DNA of 64,000 nt from Streptomyces sp. B1I3 (GTDB lineage: Bacteria > Actinomycetota > Actinomycetes > Streptomycetales > Streptomycetaceae), in NCBI RefSeq assembly GCF_030816615.1, contig NZ_JAUSYD010000001.1:2046001-2110000 (forward strand). The letters are read 5' to 3'. How positions within the stretch are numbered: the first letter of the stretch is position 1; each line of letters opens with the position of its first letter. Positions 4,146-63,195 of the stretch are shown here, in pieces. A model generated the notes under the pieces. It was not told the origin of the DNA. It did no database searches and worked only from the letters and a program-made list of their open reading frames with translations. A program made the position numbers and the translations under genes.

Positions 4146-4967
4146 ATGCCCTGGACCTTCACCGATGACGTCGGCACCTTCCTCGACGCGGCCGGTGCGT
4201 CGCTCGCCGTTCGGCCCGCCGAGAACACCCTGGTGCTGACCGTCACGGCGACCCTGCGCCACAGCGGCCCGCACGCCTACGGCGACGGTACGCCGGTGCT
4301 GGGCTGGTGGCGCGGGGCCGACGGCGAGGTGGCGGGGACGCTGGTGCGGACGCCGCCGTACGTGCCGGTCCTGGGCACGGTGGCCCCGGAGGCGCTGGGT
4401 CCGCTGGTCCGGGCGTTCCCGCTGACCGGCGTCAACGCGGACCGCGCCACCGCGCAGGCCCTCGCCGCCCACTGGCCCGGCCACCGGGTCGACGCGGAGC
4501 ACCGGCTGTACCAACTGGGCGAGTTGGTACCGCCCTCCCCCGCGCCCGGCGGCCGGCCCCGCACCGCCACCAGCGCCGACCGGGCGCTGCTCGTCGACCG
4601 GCTGCGCGCCTTCTGCGAGGAGACCGGCCAGCCGGGCGACCGGGCCGGGCGGGTCGCCGACGAGCGGATCGCACAGGGCGGGCTGACGCTCTGGGAGGAC
4701 GACGGGGTCGCGGTGTCCATGGCGGGCGTCTCGCGCGAACTCGCGGGCACCGTGCGGGTGGCGACGGTCCACACCCCGCCGGAGCACCGGAGCCGCGGAT
4801 ACGCGGCGGCGGTGACGGCGCAGGTCAGCCGGGTGGCGCGGGAGGGGGGCGCCCGTCAGGTGCTGCTCTTCACCGACCTCGCCGACCCGACGAGCAACGG
4901 CGTGTACCGCCGCATCGGTTACGAACCGGTCTGCGACCGGCTGGTGGTCACGGCGGAGCCGAAGTGA
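4146..4967 (+). CDS. GNAT family N-acetyltransferase
   Basis: A 273-residue protein. The C-terminal part carries the GNAT acetyl-CoA signature: VHTPPEHRSRGYAAAVTAQV (motif A, R/Q-x-x-G-x-G/A type) followed by FTDLADPTSNGVYRRIGYEPV, typical of the FR47-like subfamily. The N-terminal 130 residues are a less conserved partner domain. The open frame extends far upstream but overlaps the PaaX gene out of phase, so the ATG at 4146, just after a TATGAGG stretch, is the sensible start. The next gene overlaps its stop by GTGA. No substrate can be read off; membership in the aromatic pathway is doubtful. Confidence 0.85.
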   Translation: MPWTFTDDVGTFLDAAGASLAVRPAENTLVLTVTATLRHSGPHAYGDGTPVLGWWRGADGEVAGTLVRTPPYVPVLGTVAPEALGPLVRAFPLTGVNADRATAQALAAHWPGHRVDAEHRLYQLGELVPPSPAPGGRPRTATSADRALLVDRLRAFCEETGQPGDRAGRVADERIAQGGLTLWEDDGVAVSMAGVSRELAGTVRVATVHTPPEHRSRGYAAAVTAQVSRVAREGGARQVLLFTDLADPTSNGVYRRIGYEPVCDRLVVTAEPK

Positions 4968-5422
4968 CGGCCGGGGCCGGGGAGACGCCGGCGGAGCAGC
5001 GGTGGCTGGTCGCCGCGAACGTCGTGCGGTGGCGGCGCTACGGCGAGGACGGTCAGGAGCTGCGGCCCGGCACCAAGTCGTACCGGGGCGGCTCCAAGAT
5101 CTACGTCATCGAGACCTACGCGGGGGCGGGCCATGAGCAGCTGACCACGATCGGGCGCGGGCGGCACACCGGCACGTACATCGCGATCGACATGGCGACG
5201 CGCAATCTGCACACCTTCCGGGCCGTGCCGGTCCACAGCCCGACCGTGCTGCGGCTGTGCGAGGAGGCGGGCGTGGGCGGCTGCTGGACGAACCGGCAGG
5301 ACGCGGAGGAGCTCGCCGCCCGCCTCGGCCCGCTGGCCGCCGGGTACCGCACCGCCCACTGGGCCTCACCCCATCCCGTTCCCTGCCGCTGCCACGAGTG
5401 CCTGACGCTCAGCTCAGGGTGA
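4964..5422 (+). CDS. conserved hypothetical protein
   Basis: A 152-residue soluble protein starting at a GTG that overlaps the GNAT stop codon (GTGA). It has no signal peptide or membrane segment. The sequence is composition-normal and coding-like: basic N-terminal VVRWRRYGEDGQ, a GGSKIYVIETYAG strand region, RGRHTGTYIAIDM, and a C-terminal CRCHECL with three closely spaced Cys (C-x-C-x2-C) that could hold a metal. I do not recognise the family. It ends convergently with, and overlaps by 14 bases, the monooxygenase gene on the other strand. Confidence 0.7.
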   Translation: MTAGAGETPAEQRWLVAANVVRWRRYGEDGQELRPGTKSYRGGSKIYVIETYAGAGHEQLTTIGRGRHTGTYIAIDMATRNLHTFRAVPVHSPTVLRLCEEAGVGGCWTNRQDAEELAARLGPLAAGYRTAHWASPHPVPCRCHECLTLSSG

Positions 5423-7694
5423 GCCGGGGCCCGGGATGGTCGCCTCGGCCCGTCGGCGGGGTGCGGCTGCCCGCGCGGTACGGGAGCGGCCAGGGGGCGC
5501 CCGGGCCGGCGTACCCCTGCTCGGCCGCGGCGTGCAGGGTCCAGTGCGGGTCGTACAGGTGCGGGCGGGCCAGGGCGATGAGGTCGGCCCGCCCGGCCAG
5601 GAGCAGCGAGTTGACGTCGTCCCAGGAGGAGATGGCGCCGACCGCGATGACGGGGACGCCCACCGCGTTGCGGATGCGGTCGGCGTACGGGGTCTGGTAG
5701 GAGCGGCCGTACTCGGGGCGTTCGTCCGGTACGACCTGTCCGGTGGAGACGTCGATGGCGTCCGCCCCGTGGCGGGCGAAGGCACGGGCGACGGCGAGGG
5801 AGTCCTCGGCACTCGTGCCGCCCTCGGCCCAGTCCGTGGCGGAGATCCGGACGGTCATCGGCCGGTCCGCCGGCCACACCTCGCGGACGGCGTCGAAGAC
5901 CTCCAGAGGGAACCGGAGCCGCTTCGCCGCCGTGCCGCCGTAGGCGTCGGTGCGCCGGTTGGTGAGCGGGGAGAGGAAGCCGGAGAGCAGGTAACCGTGG
6001 GCGCAGTGCAGTTCGAGGAGGTCGAAGTCACTGCGGGCCGCCCGCCGCGCGGCGTCGGTGAACTGCGCGCGGACGGTGGCGAGACCGGCCCGGTCCAGCG
6101 CCCGGGGGGTCTGGCTGACGCCCGGTGCGTACGGGAGCGGGGAGGCGGCGGTGACGGGCCAGTTGCCCTCCTCCAGCGGCTGGTCGATGCCCTCCCACAT
6201 CAGCCGGGTGGAACCCTTGCGGCCGGAGTGGCCCAGCTGCACGCCGATGGCGGTACCGGGCGCCGAGTCGTGGACGAAGCGGGTGATCCGGCTCCAGGCG
6301 CCGTTCTGCTCGTCGGTCCACAGGCCGGTGCAGCCGGGGGTGATGCGTCCTTCGGGGCTCACGCACACCATCTCGGTCATGACGAGACCGGCACCTCCGA
6401 GCGCACGCGCCCCGAGGTGGACGAGGTGGAGGTCGGCGGGCAGGCCTCCGACCGCCGAGTACATGTCCATGGGCGAGACGACGACCCGGTTGCGGAGCTC
6501 CAGGCCGCGCAGCCGCAGCGGTGTGAACATCGGCGGGGTGTCCGGCGGGCAGCCGAACTCCTCCTCGACCGCTCCGGTGAATCCGGGGTCGCGCAGCCGC
6601 AGGTTGTCGTGGGTGACGCGCCGGCTGCGGGTGAGGAGGTTGAAGGCGAACCGCCGGGGCGGCTGGTCCACGTACAGCGGGAGGTCCTCGAACCAGCGCA
6701 GGCTGGCCGCCGCGGCCCGCTGGGTGGACAGGACGGCCGGGCGGCGCTCCGCCTCGTACGCGGCGAGGGCGGTGAGCAGGTCGGGATGCTCCTCGGTGCA
6801 GGCGGCCAGGGCGAGGGCGTCCTCGACGGCGAGCTTGGTCCCCGAACCGATGGAGAAGTGGGCGGTGTGGGCGGCGTCGCCGAGGAGGACCGTGGTGCCG
6901 TGCGACCAGCGGGCGTTGGTGACGGTGGCGAAGGTCAGCCAGGAGGAGTTGTTGGAGCGCAGCGGCCGTCCGCCCAGGGCCTCGGCGAAGACCTCGGCAC
7001 AGCGTTCGGCCGACTCGGCGGTGCCGCAGGTGTCGAGCCCTGCGGCACGCCAGACCTCTTCGCGCATCTCGACGATGACGGTGGAGGCGTCGGGCGCGAA
7101 GGGGTAGGCGTGCAGTTGCATCACGCCGTGCTCCGTCTCGGCGATCTCGAAGCGGAAGGCGTCGAGGGCGAAGCCTGCGGCGAGCCAGATGTAGCGGTTG
7201 TGGTGGGTGGTGACCGTCGGGCGAAAGTGGCCGGCGTGTGCCTTCCGGGTGAGACTGTGCACCCCGTCGGCGGCGATGACGAGGTCATGACTGGTCGCGA
7301 GTTCCGCGGCGGGCGGGGCCTCCGTCCCGAAGCGGAGTCGTACCCCCAGGGACGCGCAGCGCTCGTGCAGGATCCGCAGCAGGCGTCTGCGGCCCGTCGC
7401 GGCGAAGCCGTGGCCGCCCGACGTCAGGGTCTCGCCCCGGTGCACGACGTCGATGGTGTCCCAGCGGACGAGCGCGTCCCGCAGCGCCCGGTACACGACG
7501 GGGTCGGCCTGCTCGATACCGCCGAGTGTCTCGTCGGAGAGGACCACACCGAAGCCGAATGTGTCGTCGGGTGCGTTGCGTTCCCAGACGGTGATCTCGC
7601 GCCCGGGTCCGAGCCTTTTGAGGAGGGCCGCCGCGTACAGTCCGCCGGGCCCGCCGCCGATGACCGCGATCCGTCCGATGCCGGGCGGGGTCAC
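5409..7694 (-). CDS. two-domain FAD monooxygenase/FMN reductase (2-aminobenzoyl-CoA monooxygenase/reductase or salicylyl-CoA 5-hydroxylase type)
   Basis: A 761-residue fusion. Residues 1-380 are a class A flavin monooxygenase: GGGPGGLYAAALLKR at 13-27 binds the FAD ADP moiety, AADGVHSLTRKAH is the DG motif, and LLGDAAHTAHFSIGSG the GD motif. Residues 385-750 are an old-yellow-enzyme barrel: FTPLRLRGLELRNRVVVSPM, HCAHGYLLSGFLSP and NRRTDAYGG. This arrangement is that of aerobic 2-aminobenzoyl-CoA monooxygenase/reductase, which hydroxylates and then reduces the ring; single-domain salicylyl-CoA 5-hydroxylases lack the second half. The GTG start lies 4 bases after the enoyl-CoA hydratase stop, indicating one operon. 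It sits opposite the ligase operon and overlaps the convergent hypothetical gene at its 3' end. Confidence 0.85.
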   Translation of the reverse strand: MTPPGIGRIAVIGGGPGGLYAAALLKRLGPGREITVWERNAPDDTFGFGVVLSDETLGGIEQADPVVYRALRDALVRWDTIDVVHRGETLTSGGHGFAATGRRRLLRILHERCASLGVRLRFGTEAPPAAELATSHDLVIAADGVHSLTRKAHAGHFRPTVTTHHNRYIWLAAGFALDAFRFEIAETEHGVMQLHAYPFAPDASTVIVEMREEVWRAAGLDTCGTAESAERCAEVFAEALGGRPLRSNNSSWLTFATVTNARWSHGTTVLLGDAAHTAHFSIGSGTKLAVEDALALAACTEEHPDLLTALAAYEAERRPAVLSTQRAAAASLRWFEDLPLYVDQPPRRFAFNLLTRSRRVTHDNLRLRDPGFTGAVEEEFGCPPDTPPMFTPLRLRGLELRNRVVVSPMDMYSAVGGLPADLHLVHLGARALGGAGLVMTEMVCVSPEGRITPGCTGLWTDEQNGAWSRITRFVHDSAPGTAIGVQLGHSGRKGSTRLMWEGIDQPLEEGNWPVTAASPLPYAPGVSQTPRALDRAGLATVRAQFTDAARRAARSDFDLLELHCAHGYLLSGFLSPLTNRRTDAYGGTAAKRLRFPLEVFDAVREVWPADRPMTVRISATDWAEGGTSAEDSLAVARAFARHGADAIDVSTGQVVPDERPEYGRSYQTPYADRIRNAVGVPVIAVGAISSWDDVNSLLLAGRADLIALARPHLYDPHWTLHAAAEQGYAGPGAPWPLPYRAGSRTPPTGRGDHPGPRLTLS

Positions 7695-29749: not shown

Positions 29750-30643
29750 TCAGTAGGCGCTGAACACGTTGTCGATCGAGCCGTACCGGTCGGCGGCGTA
29801 GTTGCACGCGGCCGTGATGTTGGCGACCGGGTCGTAGCTGTCCATCGACGTACCGGGCACGTGGTAGGCCTGGAAGGTCGGGTCGATGACCTGCAGAAGA
29901 CCCTTGGACGGGACACCGTTGATCGCGTTGATGTCCCAGTTGTTGATGGCCAGGGGGTTACCGGAGGACTCGCGCATGATGTTGCGGTGGATGCCCTCGT
30001 AGCTGCCGGGGATGCCGTGCTCGGCCATGACGGCGAGCGACTCCTTGATCCAGCCGTCGAGGTCGTCGGTGTACGCCACCGGCTCGGCGGCGACGGCCTC
30101 GGTGGCGGCGGGCGCACCCTGGGCGGCGAGCTCCGTGGTCCGCTCGGAGCGGTCGGCACGGTCGGCGCTCTGCTCGGCGCGGTCCGAGGAAGCGGAGGTC
30201 TCGGAATCGGCCGCAGCGGCGCTTCCGGCCTTCTTCTCGGCCTTGCCGGCGGAGGCCGCCGCATTGTTGTCGGCCTTGGCCCCGATGGTCAGCTTCAGGC
30301 CGGGGTGAATCAGGTCCGGGTTACCGCCGACAGCCTTTCGGTTGCCGTTGTAGAGCTCCTGCCAGCCACCGCTGACGGAATGATCGCGTGCGATCTTGGC
30401 AAGGGAATCACCCAAGATCACGGAATAGGTGACGGGCGCGGACTTCTGCGCGGCAATTTCCTTGCCGGACACGGCAGTCGACGTGGTCGCCTTTTCGACC
30501 GCCACCGGATGTGCCGGTGCGGCGAACGCTCCGGTCGCGCCGATCACGGGGAGGGCGAGGGCGGCTCCGCCCGTGCTCACGGCGATGATGCCGCGGGTGA
30601 GCGAACTGGTCCTGGAACGACGGTGCTTGGCCTGTGCGGGCAT
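29750..30643 (-). CDS. secreted LysM and transglycosylase-domain protein
   Basis: A 297-residue secreted protein. Residues 1-42 are a signal peptide ending in GATGAFAAPA; about 70-122 a LysM domain (TYSVILGDSLAKIARDH ... NPDLIHPGLKLTI) that binds peptidoglycan; an Ala/Asp/Ser-rich linker; about 195-297 a transglycosylase-like domain with IMRESSGNPLAINNWD (catalytic-type Glu) and GLLQVIDPTFQAY. It probably cleaves or remodels peptidoglycan outside the cell during growth or germination. A GGAGAGGAATT ribosome site and a ydaO-type riboswitch stand upstream, so c-di-AMP likely controls it, as for Streptomyces resuscitation-promoting-factor genes. Confidence 0.92.
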   Translation of the reverse strand: MPAQAKHRRSRTSSLTRGIIAVSTGGAALALPVIGATGAFAAPAHPVAVEKATTSTAVSGKEIAAQKSAPVTYSVILGDSLAKIARDHSVSGGWQELYNGNRKAVGGNPDLIHPGLKLTIGAKADNNAAASAGKAEKKAGSAAAADSETSASSDRAEQSADRADRSERTTELAAQGAPAATEAVAAEPVAYTDDLDGWIKESLAVMAEHGIPGSYEGIHRNIMRESSGNPLAINNWDINAINGVPSKGLLQVIDPTFQAYHVPGTSMDSYDPVANITAACNYAADRYGSIDNVFSAY

Positions 30644-30658
30644 GCTGAATTCCTCTCC

Positions 30659-30825
30659 GTCGCCTGCGAAGTGAGCTGTCGGGTTCGGGCTGGAGATGCC
30701 CGGTCGCATGCGAATGCGACTTCACCCCGAGCCGTTCCGGATAGCCGGATCGGCGCTTACCTGGGTCCCCCGCTCCTGCCGTACGAGATGTGGTCGGGTT
30801 CCCGGACGGCGGCAGGATTCGGCGT
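30659..30825 (-). promoter_or_regulatory. ydaO-type c-di-AMP riboswitch
   Basis: The minus-strand leader of the LysM gene contains, in order, the conserved ydaO/yuaA blocks: CGCCGAATCCTGCCG near 30825, GGAACCCGACCACAT near 30798, GGCTCGGGGTGAA near 30740, and CCCGAACCCGACAGCTCAC then GCAGGCG just before the ribosome site. Actinobacterial ydaO elements of this form bind c-di-AMP and switch off cell-wall hydrolase genes. Boundaries are approximate. Confidence 0.88.
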
Positions 30826-31190
30826 TCCATCCGGAGTGAGGGTGACCGTAGGCGAGAAATGCCGAAAGGAACAAGCCCTGAATTCGTGATCACAATTCAT
30901 CGGCAAGATCAATTCATTGAAATTCGTGTAACCGGCCCCACACGCCCGTCTCAACTTTCCCGGCGCGCAAGGGAACCGGAAGGTGCGGCGCAGCGTCCCG
31001 GGCAAGCAAGGTGACCCTGGTCACGGCGTCCGATAAGGGCGATTTGCACTGCACGGGAGGGCGGTGGTCGCCCGGGAGGCTTTAGCGGATATTAAGGTAT
31101 TAATTCCAGAAAAAAGCTCAAAACGGGCATACGACTCACCCATGACGCTCTCGGGCATATCAGGGGCCACGGTGTGGGATCCGTCCACTC
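30826..31190. other. intergenic region with AT-rich stretches
   Basis: 365 bases between the riboswitch and the small divergent gene. Two AT-rich stretches, 30885-30930 and 31085-31125, stand out from the high-GC surroundings and probably hold the promoters for the riboswitch transcript and for the small gene. No gene seen. Confidence 0.5.
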
Positions 31191-59516: not shown

Positions 59517-60317
59517 TCAGCAGAGCGGAACGCCCGGAAGTTTCGCGTCCGGGTGGTCGATGTAGATGTTGCTGATGAAGCCGTTCTGGTCACGCAGCTT
59601 GCTCCACCAGTTGTTGCTGTATCCCTCGGCGTTGACGGTGTCACCCTGCTTCTGGCACAGCACCCGTACGGCCGTCGGACCGGTGAGGGTGGTGACGACG
59701 GCGGCGGTGACACGGGCGTCGGCGCGGACGTTCACCCCGCTGCCCCAGGTGCTGAACGGGTAGCCGCTGCCACCGCAGCCGTTGTCGCTGGTCAGGTACG
59801 CCTGGTAGTAACTGCCCGGGTAGGCCAGGCCGACGCCGTTGATGACGATGTTCTGGCCCGCGCCGTTGTACAGCTGCTCGTAGTGGATGTGCGCCCCGGA
59901 GGAGTTGCCCGTACTGCCGGTGACGCCGATCTGCTGTCCCTGGGCGACCCACGCGCCGCTCGCCACCGAGTACGCGGAAAGGTGGAAGTAGTACGTGGTC
60001 CAGCCGCCGCCGTGGTCGATCGCTATGTAATTGCCCGCACCGCTCGGCTGCGAGTAGCGGGTGGCCGTGCCGGCGGCGGAGGCGAGCACCGGGGTGCCGG
60101 CCGTCGCGCCGCCGTCGGAACGTACGAAGTCCAGCGCCCGGCGCACCTCGGCCGAGTGGTGGCTGTACGTCCACTGCTGGCCGCAGGGGTAGGGCGCCTT
60201 GAAGACGGGCGCGGCCGACGCACCGGCTTCGCCGGCCTGTGCCGGGGCGGCCGACAGTGCGGTGAGCGCCAGTAGGGCTCCGGCGACCAGGGCCGGAAGA
60301 CGTCCGAGAAACCTCAC
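59517..60317 (-). CDS. secreted M23 peptidase with C-terminal SH3-like module
   Basis: A 266-residue secreted protein with GTG start after AGGAG. Signal peptide to APAQA; residues about 35-165 hold a LytM/M23 metallopeptidase: HHSAEVRRALDF (His and Asp zinc ligands) and SSGAHIHYEQ (HxH). Residues about 190-266 are an SH3-like module: TWGSGVNVRADARV, LCQKQGDTV, NNWWSKL, GFISNIYIDH, ending LPGVPLC. It should cut peptide cross-links of peptidoglycan or a related peptide bond. It is divergent from the serine hydrolase with the same C-terminal module. Confidence 0.9.
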   Translation of the reverse strand: MRFLGRLPALVAGALLALTALSAAPAQAGEAGASAAPVFKAPYPCGQQWTYSHHSAEVRRALDFVRSDGGATAGTPVLASAAGTATRYSQPSGAGNYIAIDHGGGWTTYYFHLSAYSVASGAWVAQGQQIGVTGSTGNSSGAHIHYEQLYNGAGQNIVINGVGLAYPGSYYQAYLTSDNGCGGSGYPFSTWGSGVNVRADARVTAAVVTTLTGPTAVRVLCQKQGDTVNAEGYSNNWWSKLRDQNGFISNIYIDHPDAKLPGVPLC

Positions 60318-60547
60318 GATTGCTCCTAGGGGGGAGGCGGCCCGGTCGGAACGGCCGGGCCGAGCGGCGGTGAGACGTCGGGAACGTAGCGGTGGTCCGG
60401 GCAGCCGACAAGCGTGCGACGGGCTTCTTCGACCAGGAACGAATGTGTTGCGCGACGGCCCGGCCCCCAGCACTCTGACGCCACGTGCCACAGCGTCACC
60501 GGGCCGCCGGCCGGGTGCGCCCGCGCCTCGAAGGAGCCCCCACTCCC

Positions 60548-61876
60548 ATGCCCCCGGTCCGCCCCGCCCGCCGTCCGCCGCTTCCCGTCACCGCCCTCGC
60601 GGCGGTCGGGCTGCTGATCGCCGCGTTCACCGGACCGGCGGTGGCCGCACCCGCCACGGCCCCGCCCTTTCCGACCGCCGCCGCCGCCGGCAACGCACCG
60701 TCACCCGTCGGGCCCACGGTGGCGGACGCCGGTGCCGGGCAGGTGACGGACAGAACGAGGACCAGCACCGTCGTGGACATCCCGGCAGGCGTCACGGCGG
60801 GAGTCGCCGTGTACGACAGGCTCACCGGCCGCTTCACCGAGCAGTACCAGGCGGACCGCGCCTTCCGTTCCGCCTCGGTGGTCAAGCTGTTGCTGGCACT
60901 GGACTTCTTATGGAACCGGGGCCCGGCCTACGACCTGCCCCAGGCCGACCGGGACCGCCTCGACGCCATGTTGCGCAGCAGCGACGACGACGCCGCGAAC
61001 CACTACTGGTCCACGGGCGGCGGCAGTGCCGTGATCACCCGTATGGCGCTCCGCCTGGCACTCACCGGCACCACGCCACCACCGGCCGCGTACCCCGGCT
61101 ACTGGGGCTACACGGCGACCACCGCCGCAGACACCGTCCGGGTCTACCGCTACCTCCTCGACGAGGCGCCGGCACCGGTACGGGGTCTCGTCCTGGAGTC
61201 CCTGCACCGGTCCACCCGCTGCGCCACCGACGGCTTCGACCAGCACTTCGGGCTGCCTTCCGCGTTCGACGCGCCGGGGGCGGTCAAGCAGGGCTGGTCC
61301 GGCTTCGCTTCCGGGGGCTGCACCGCCGCCGGGACCCGGACGGCCGCACCCGGCACGTCCGTCTCCGCCGCACCCGGCACGTCCGTCTCCGCCGCGAGCG
61401 GCACCGGCGGGAACAGGCCTCGGGGGACATCCACCGACAGCCTGGCGCCCGTGCTGGATCTGACGTCCGACGCACTGCACACCACCGGCACCGTCGGCTC
61501 CGACGACCGGACGGTGGTCGCCGTCCTCACCCTGCACCCCGACGGCACTCCATACGGGTCCGCCTACAGCAAGGTCACCGCGCTCACCGATTCCCTGGAC
61601 GTTCCCGGAGCCGTCCGCCCGTCCGGCACCCGGTTCACCACCTGGGGCAGTGGCGTCCGGGTCCGCAGCGGCGCCACCACGTCATCCACCGCCCTCACCA
61701 CCCTGCCCGCCGGGGTGGACGTCCTCGTCGGATGCCAGCGGCAGGGCGAACGGGTGTCGGTCCCTCCCTACGTCAACGACTGGTGGGCCTACCTGCCCCA
61801 GTACGGCGGCTGGATCACCAACATCTACGTCGAATCCCCCGACAACACCCTCCCGGGCGTACCCCACTGCTCATGA
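60548..61876 (+). CDS. secreted beta-lactamase-fold serine hydrolase with SH3-like module
   Basis: A 442-residue secreted protein; AAGGAG precedes the ATG. Signal peptide to AVAA, a Pro/Ala linker, then a class A beta-lactamase-like domain (about 75-350): catalytic SASVVK (Ser110, Lys113), RSSDDDAANHYW in place of SDN and VKQGWSG in place of KTG. The C-terminal 80 residues are the SH3-like module TWGSGVRVRSGA ... DWWAYL ... GWITNIYVE ... LPGVPHC. The altered motifs suggest a DD-peptidase or esterase-like or non-catalytic role rather than drug resistance. It is followed by the third SH3-module gene. Confidence 0.87.
   Translation: MPPVRPARRPPLPVTALAAVGLLIAAFTGPAVAAPATAPPFPTAAAAGNAPSPVGPTVADAGAGQVTDRTRTSTVVDIPAGVTAGVAVYDRLTGRFTEQYQADRAFRSASVVKLLLALDFLWNRGPAYDLPQADRDRLDAMLRSSDDDAANHYWSTGGGSAVITRMALRLALTGTTPPPAAYPGYWGYTATTAADTVRVYRYLLDEAPAPVRGLVLESLHRSTRCATDGFDQHFGLPSAFDAPGAVKQGWSGFASGGCTAAGTRTAAPGTSVSAAPGTSVSAASGTGGNRPRGTSTDSLAPVLDLTSDALHTTGTVGSDDRTVVAVLTLHPDGTPYGSAYSKVTALTDSLDVPGAVRPSGTRFTTWGSGVRVRSGATTSSTALTTLPAGVDVLVGCQRQGERVSVPPYVNDWWAYLPQYGGWITNIYVESPDNTLPGVPHCS
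61343..61390. repeat. 24-base tandem duplication in serine hydrolase gene
   Basis: Two exact 24-base units (61343-61366, 61367-61390) encode AAPGTSVS twice within a surface loop of the hydrolase domain. In frame. Confidence 0.9.
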
Positions 61877-61911
61877 CGCCCCACACGCCCCCACCGAGAA
61901 GGAGGCGCACC

Positions 61912-63195
61912 GTGCGCCGCAACCACAGATCCCGTTCCGCCGCCGTCCACGTCCGCCGCGGCCCGGCCGTCGCCGTGTCCCTGCTGGCCCTCGCCGCTCT
62001 GACCCTCGCCTCGGGACCCGCCGCCGCCCGCGACGCCGCGCCCGACGGCGACGCCCCGCTCGGCAGCGTCGGCTGGCGGGTGGACCTGTCCGCGCCGACC
62101 GCCGACGAGACCAACGTGAGCCACGCCGACGGCACGCTGCGCCTCCGCGACCGCACACTGCGGCCCGCGTCCGCCCGCACCACCCGGGGGCAGGGCACGG
62201 TCCTGGTGCCCGAGCGCGTACTCGACCGCGCGGTGGACCGGATCACCCCCGAACTCGACGCCACCCTTCCGGCCGGATCCGAGGTCGCCGTCGACGTACG
62301 CGGACGGGACGGGCTGGGCGCCTGGACCGAATGGCGTGAAGCGAGCACCGACACACCGGCTCTGCTCCCCCGGGCCGTCACCCGGGTGCAGACCCGGGTC
62401 ACCCTGATATCCGCCCCGGACGGCGCCGCACCGGTCGTGCGCGACCTGCATCTGAGTGCCGAACTCGACGACGGGGCACCGCGGGCCGTCGCGGCCGCCG
62501 CCTACACGGCCACCGTCTACGCCACCCGCGAGGGCCTGGTCGGCGGAACCACCGCGAACGGGCACGTGATCGTGACCAATGATCACTTCGTGGCGCTCCC
62601 GTCCCGTCGCGGCCTCTCCCCGAAGGGCAGCGCCCAGTACTCGGTCCGCGTGTGCGGTCCGGTGCGCTGCGAGACCGCCCCGGTGTGGGACGTCGGCCCG
62701 TGGAACACCCACGACGACCACTGGAATCCGTCCTCCGTCCGCGAGACCTTCAAGGACCTGCCGCAGGGCAAGCCGGAATCGCAGGCCGCCTATCAGGACG
62801 GTTACAACGGCGGGCTGGACGAATTCGGTCGCCGGGTGCTCAACCCGGCCGGCATAGACCTCGCCGACGGCACCTTCTACAACGTCGGCCTGAACAACAA
62901 CGGGTACGTCACCGTCACTTACCTGTGGACCGGCGCGGGCGCGGCGACCACGTCCTTCCCGACCTGGGGCACCGACGTCAACGTCCGCCAGCAGCCGACC
63001 AGCACGTCCACCCGGGTCGCACAGCTCCCGGATCCCACGACGGTGCGCGTGCAGTGCCAGGTGCACGGCCAGCTCGTCCAGGCCGACGGCCACAGCAACG
63101 ACGCCTGGTCCTACCTGCCGGACTACGGCGGCTACGTCTCCAACATCTTCATCGACGTCGCCGACAGCTGGCTTCCGGGCGTCCCGACCTGCTGA
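61912..63195 (+). CDS. secreted protein with SH3-like C-terminal module
   Basis: A 427-residue secreted protein. GTG 61912 is chosen because AAGGAGG lies 6 bases upstream; ATG 61873, which overlaps the previous stop, has no ribosome site. Signal peptide to GPAAARDA; residues about 40-185 a beta-rich domain with DVRGRDGLGAWTEWRE; about 200-345 a domain with GLVGGTTANGHVIV, APVWDVGPWNTHDDHWN and GYNGGLDEFGRRVLNPAGID, resembling double-psi-barrel-like wall-associated domains; the last 80 residues the SH3-like module TWGTDVNVR ... DAWSYL ... GYVSNIFIDV ... LPGVPTC. Function unknown; cell-wall location inferred. Confidence 0.82.
   Translation: MRRNHRSRSAAVHVRRGPAVAVSLLALAALTLASGPAAARDAAPDGDAPLGSVGWRVDLSAPTADETNVSHADGTLRLRDRTLRPASARTTRGQGTVLVPERVLDRAVDRITPELDATLPAGSEVAVDVRGRDGLGAWTEWREASTDTPALLPRAVTRVQTRVTLISAPDGAAPVVRDLHLSAELDDGAPRAVAAAAYTATVYATREGLVGGTTANGHVIVTNDHFVALPSRRGLSPKGSAQYSVRVCGPVRCETAPVWDVGPWNTHDDHWNPSSVRETFKDLPQGKPESQAAYQDGYNGGLDEFGRRVLNPAGIDLADGTFYNVGLNNNGYVTVTYLWTGAGAATTSFPTWGTDVNVRQQPTSTSTRVAQLPDPTTVRVQCQVHGQLVQADGHSNDAWSYLPDYGGYVSNIFIDVADSWLPGVPTC

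Follow-up and report, generated by a model that had tools for sequence, protein, structure and literature searches.

The window analysed here is a 64,000-nucleotide stretch of the Streptomyces sp. B1I3 genome (2.046-2.110 Mb of a single-contig, 7.52 Mb Streptomyces-type genome), in which three adjacent genes encode secreted products that each end in the same C-terminal SH3-like module. P0001 (59517-60317, minus strand) encodes a secreted M23 metallopeptidase of 266 amino acids with a GTG start and a Sec-type signal ending in ...APAQA, and is divergent from P0002 and P0003, which are located on the plus strand. P0002 (60548-61876) encodes a secreted serine DD-peptidase/beta-lactamase-like protein of 442 amino acids, and P0003 (61912-63195) a secreted three-domain protein of 427 amino acids whose GTG start follows an AAGGAGG sequence. 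The divergent genes are separated by a spacer of 230 nucleotides, and as P0002 and P0003 lie 35 nucleotides apart, they are probably carried on one transcript. The P0003 frame remains open through the P0002 gene in this GC-rich DNA (60199-63195, plus strand, 998 codons), and an automatic gene caller could misplace its start; a single protein spanning this frame was rejected because GTG 61912 has its own ribosome site.

The three modules are found at 59520-59762 (minus strand) in P0001 and at 61628-61870 and 62950-63192 (both plus strand) in P0002 and P0003, respectively, and were assigned by alignment and genome profile search, with an additional fold match to 8b2g/8b2f for the P0003 copy. Their alignment spans 81 columns, 27 of which are invariant, both Cys residues among them; the copies show 46-51% pairwise identity and give alignment scores 29-31 standard deviations above those of shuffled sequences. 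In a search of the whole genome with a profile of the three modules, they are the only strong copies (E<1e-44), and beyond them it yields one weak match (E 1.8e-6), to a small protein at 4.59 Mb that carries an ordinary SH3 domain. Aligned with the other two, each module reaches scores of 203-207; with ordinary actinobacterial SH3 domains, to which it is 24-33% identical, the score does not exceed 102. Resemblance by chance or through generic SH3 similarity was rejected on the basis of these scores and the shuffles. An earlier note on this DNA had described a common C-terminal module with two conserved Cys per copy on three neighbouring secreted proteins, and had named better alignment to unrelated SH3 families as the outcome that would speak against it; the scores show the opposite, and all 22 of the diverse modules compared retain both Cys36 and Cys81. 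The search across Actinobacteria that the note had suggested recovers this type of module, hereafter WG-type, at E<=1e-15 in 5 of the 396 sampled, all from one genus.

The module belongs to the bacterial SH3 (SH3b) domains, a type that is already known. When a profile of 22 copies is compared with PDB, only fungal SH3-like wall-binding domains are returned at E<=1e-4 (8b2f with E 9e-7, 8b2s and 8b2g), and the predicted module structure matches 8b2g with a TM-score of 0.86 and a root-mean-square deviation of 2.0, and 8b2f with values of 0.87 and 1.7. In the alignment, the two Cys of the module coincide with the disulphide-bonded Cys33 and Cys72 of the fungal domains, and the pair probably stabilises the fold through one such bond; the other fungal pair, Cys9-Cys53, is absent. 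The fungal domains are likewise fused to wall-degrading enzymes of more than one catalytic family, although they sit on muramidases whereas the window module, which is bacterial, C-terminal and ends in LPGVPxC, is found on peptidases, amidases and a double-psi beta-barrel (DPBB) protein. As an isolated fungal domain binds Micrococcus cells and a glycine tripeptide, and not cellulose (PMC10394673), the homologues, together with the wall-enzyme partners of the module in Streptomyces, support the earlier suggestion of a wall anchor or targeting tag. Conceivably the module binds not peptidoglycan but some other target, for instance a component of the spore coat, a surface glycan or a partner protein, since SH3 domains bind proteins too, the fungal triglycine complex represents a model ligand only (PMC10394673), and P0003 has an extra carbohydrate-binding-like N-terminal domain; however, whole Micrococcus cells are bound by the closest solved relative, and in Streptomyces the module occurs with catalytic partners that, where recognisable, belong to peptidoglycan enzymes, leaving such a target only a slight chance. 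The module also shares a C-x3-G...W...Y...C skeleton with the SH3 tails of other actinobacterial wall proteins, including GsmA (model NF038016, the SH3 part of which is matched by P0003 at E 8e-8) and proteins of Amycolatopsis, Saccharothrix and Actinomadura. These ordinary tails differ from the WG-type by the low identity given above, and in the searches performed here the WG-type is confined to Streptomycetaceae, including among the DPBB loci described below.

The M23 catalytic domain of P0001 (residues 70-154; 59856-60110, minus strand) matches Pfam PF01551 with 83.1 bits against a cut-off of 28.7. Across 28 sequences, D28, H77 and the H-x-H motif (108/110) are invariant; the first His is nearly so (18/19), and by both its Pfam score and its metal-ligand residues P0001 is classed as an M23 peptidase. 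It resembles the lysostaphin-type M23 endopeptidases in having an M23 domain followed by a C-terminal SH3b wall-targeting domain, and differs from them in carrying another SH3 subtype and in belonging to a set of genes that share a tail. P0002 contains the motifs S-V-V-K (SxxK), S-D-D and K-Q-G in this order, all invariant in 18 family members, of which 14 are matched by the Beta-lactamase2 model (best E 3e-6). P0002 itself falls short of the family cut-offs, reaching 15 bits where the class A beta-lactamase model requires 200, and its nearest solved chain is a DD-carboxypeptidase with a weak E of 0.0017; neither P0002 nor P0003 has a match in PHROGs. The ordered SxxK, S-D-x and K-x-G motifs are those of the class A beta-lactamase/DD-carboxypeptidase fold (4rye), from which P0002 departs by its SDD and KQG variants of SDN and KTG, its low overall similarity and its wall-binding tail, and it is best described as a serine DD-peptidase/beta-lactamase-like protein.

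For P0003, the earlier note had recognised the end module and left the core as unknown; the module stands, while the core can now be assigned to two domains and the start is corrected to GTG 61912. An AlphaFold model built from 68 sequences (pLDDT 84.7) shows a beta-sandwich, then a barrel, and then the SH3 module. The beta-sandwich (62068-62481, plus strand) is carbohydrate-binding or jelly-roll-like according to predicted secondary structure and weak structure matches to CBM6, CBM22, CBM32, CBM35 and meprin domains. The barrel (62494-62946, plus strand), which contains the invariant motifs WD.GPWN and AGIDLADG.F, was also modelled separately (pLDDT 88.6), and its top-ranked structure matches are DPBB proteins, namely kiwellin, expansins, a Streptomyces papain inhibitor and loosenin, with TM-scores to the query of mostly 0.44-0.48 and of up to 0.64 to compact targets. 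In the whole model, the barrel is matched best by expansins and the tail by fungal SH3 domains, and the prediction of a DPBB fold is well supported. No Pfam model covers the core, the DPBB_1/RlpA-type model (PF03330) finds nothing in this genome at E<=1e-3, and a core profile compared with PDB sequences returns nothing meaningful for the core.

The likeness of P0003 to bacterial expansins (EXLX1/YoaJ, 2bh0; Ss_EXLX1, 9ms5) consists of the DPBB fold and of motifs corresponding to VxD..P and D-L-x-x-x-x-F. Asp260 (WDVGPWN) and Asp316 (AGIDLADGTF) are invariant in the 68 sequences and are matched, by motif only, to expansin Asp71 and Asp82, both of which are functional in Bacillus subtilis expansin (PMC5072189). 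The D78N entry of the Clavibacter expansin carries Asn exactly at the essential D1 Asp of the LDLS..AF motif, and Clavibacter Asp78 corresponds to B. subtilis Asp82 (PMC5072189). The B. subtilis expansin binds peptidoglycan strongly and its mutant autolyses less (reviewed in PMC5072189), which fits P0003 as a wall-loosening partner, with the functional correspondence drawn at the level of motifs. P0003 is not an expansin by definition, as it has neither the second expansin domain (D2, CBM63), its C-terminal domain being the SH3 module, nor a Tyr at the position of Tyr73; it also differs in the beta-sandwich in front of the barrel and in being too distant for Pfam DPBB_1.

At least 577 relatives of the P0003 core are present in the collection scanned, of which 80 were kept and compared as loci (numbered L###). 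These are from Actinobacteria with the exception of one from the myxobacterium Corallococcus (L132), which has a different C-terminal part, and the family is therefore not confined to Actinobacteria. L062 and L117 carry what read as peptidoglycan-binding-like tails, and outside Streptomycetaceae relatives adjoin M23 genes in L124 and L129. This expansin-like DPBB family, for which Pfam has no name, is widespread in Actinobacteria and appears undescribed. In L183, a tail-less DPBB protein (4224-5513) is accompanied by a third-type SH3 tail in an overlapping frame (5228-5785), possibly a frameshift or a split gene. One alternative reading is that the three proteins have unrelated tasks, with P0002 a secreted beta-lactamase for antibiotic defence, P0003 a protease inhibitor, and the tail merely an anchor to the producer. 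The DPBB matches include the papain inhibitor 5ntb (TM-score to target 0.64), and in S. mobaraensis protease inhibitors and a secreted beta-lactamase serve as substrates of transglutaminase (PMC4757070). Separate tasks nevertheless appear rather improbable given the beta-lactamase score and the DD-carboxypeptidase match of P0002, the peptidoglycan-binding-like tails of some P0003 relatives and their position beside M23 genes even outside the family Streptomycetaceae.

Other Streptomyces proteins ending in the module are M23 peptidases of two types, serine SxxK proteins, DPBB proteins and proteins that are, on reading of their sequences, amidase-2-like, NlpC/P60-like and M15-like, so that its partners can almost always be recognised as wall enzymes. 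A total of 76 strong module genes are present in 48 of 121 Streptomyces genomes, and 26 of them lie within 10 kb of another, compared with a mean of 0.2 and a maximum of 6 in 20,000 trials of random placement. The arrangement of the window, with an M23 gene divergent from a beta-lactamase-like gene followed by a DPBB gene, recurs in L035, L036, L055, L056, L057, L061 and L089, and with an added amidase gene in L059, L060 and L073. Other recurring arrangements consist of an amidase gene followed by a DPBB gene (L064, L069, L070, L077, L086) or of a DPBB gene followed by an M23 gene (L037, L038, L066, L071, L075, L079, L081, L082, L083, L088). Several species seem to retain remnants of a decayed amidase gene next to a DPBB gene that is intact: the short frames upstream of the DPBB gene in L042, L068, L072 and L076 have modules that group with amidase modules. 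Small secreted proteins comprising little beyond one divergent module are encoded near a serine-enzyme gene in L040 (3913-5118 and 5752-6297), L048 (4890-5435) and L049 (1870-2710), and the NlpC/P60-like proteins of L052, L053 and L054 have three tandem module copies.

Neighbouring genes also carry tails of the same kind when the tail is of another type. The M23 and DPBB proteins of the window have WG-type tails with 51% identity. In Actinomadura L129, the DPBB protein ends in an ordinary SH3 tail, as does the M23 protein of the gene immediately following (58% identity), these tails being only 23-27% identical to their window counterparts. In Streptomyces L181 (4329-7612, encoding an M23 protein, a DPBB protein and a second, divergent M23 protein), the last two have near-identical tails of a third SH3 type (89%). 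This pattern suggests that adjacent genes retain a shared tail regardless of its type. An alternative is that the tails are alike mainly through sequence exchange between neighbours, by tandem duplication or gene conversion, with no joint action implied, as the 89% identity of the L181 pair would allow. In a tree of 111 modules, one local exchange of this kind is seen in L073, where the amidase and DPBB modules group together (97/86). The tree otherwise groups modules by the attached enzyme and not by locus as ongoing exchange would produce, with all 25 M23 modules in one clade (100/98) and all 18 beta-lactamase-like modules in another (100/100). As these clades extend across species, the window copies are old and enzyme-specific rather than recent copies of one another, and exchange as the main cause is unlikely.

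The region at 60373-60444 retains two blocks amid diverged flanks and is a putative divergent promoter region: the first, AGACGTCGGGAACGTAG (60373-60389), is identical or has one mismatch in the five trio loci compared, and the second, the dyad TTCGACCAGGAACGAAT (60428-60444), is identical in all five. A weak TTGTCG-N17-TACGTT sequence on the minus strand faces the M23 gene, and a sigma-70 consensus scan gave no site. Riboswitch control of the trio was rejected, the sole Rfam match in the window being 29 kb distant. This match, a c-di-AMP riboswitch (RF00379, 73.9 bits; 30646-30834, minus strand), overlaps the start of an open reading frame (29750-30709, minus strand) whose product looks like a secreted protein with LysM and lytic-transglycosylase-like parts, and would add a further wall enzyme, one that is controlled in a known manner.

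Taken together, the module, the SH3 fold, the M23 family, the serine motifs, the DPBB fold, the clustering and the matched tails, as predicted from sequence and structure, make it probable that these genes specify secreted peptidoglycan-remodelling proteins that are targeted together by a shared SH3b tag. The idea of one extracellular system, already raised in the earlier note, gains support from the repeated clustering, the conserved divergent promoter region and the matching of tails across tail types. Through its C-terminal module, most likely by recognition of peptide stems or bridges, each protein would be retained on the bacterial wall, and because all three bear the same tag they are proposed to concentrate at the same wall sites. 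At these sites, peptide cross-links would be cleaved by the M23 enzyme and stem peptides trimmed or cut by the serine SxxK enzyme, while the DPBB protein may act as expansins or DPBB lytic transglycosylases do, by loosening the wall or cleaving it. From these predictions we infer wall binding, the individual activities and joint action, and a role that could be either remodelling or autolysis of the own wall or lysis of other bacteria. A further and tentative proposal is that P0003 stands for an extensive and so far undescribed family in Actinobacteria, whose expansin-like DPBB proteins loosen or cleave peptidoglycan in a working partnership with an M23 endopeptidase, with selection keeping the tails of the partners alike despite exchange of tail type.

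Several observations weigh against this interpretation. The window modules score 21.2, 16.2 and 20.9 bits with Pfam SH3_3 (PF08239), under its 27-bit cut-off; this model matches 17 of 22 WG-type modules at E<=0.1. P0002 carries KQG in place of KTG, and its activity class is tentative. The link between the DPBB domain and expansins is through predicted structure with the moderate TM-scores of 0.44-0.48 and no E below 1e-3, and a profile-profile comparison of the barrel with RlpA/expansin is weak, covering 30 columns around the DL motif (P 0.0044, probability 8%). The full trio is found in part of the genus only and many module genes are solitary. Matched tails beyond the WG-type are limited to two further cases, of which the L181 pair may have arisen by recent copying, and L124 is a counter-example in which the M23 protein adjoining the DPBB protein has no matching tail.

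Wall hydrolases tagged with SH3b domains are well known, as is the use of such a domain for module walking. A literature search on GsmA or this Streptomyces set found none, and within the literature searched, a Streptomycetaceae-specific SH3 subtype common to several kinds of clustered wall protein, the matching of tails between neighbours and the DPBB family without a Pfam name appear to be new. Bacteria need to open their wall at chosen places without bursting, and wall proteins of different action with one address tag would illustrate the way in which such activities reach the same site. The shared tag could also lead to wall proteins not yet known, by the walking approach already applied to the fungal GH184 muramidases, and if the DPBB family does loosen peptidoglycan, expansin-type action would be extended to bacterial walls.

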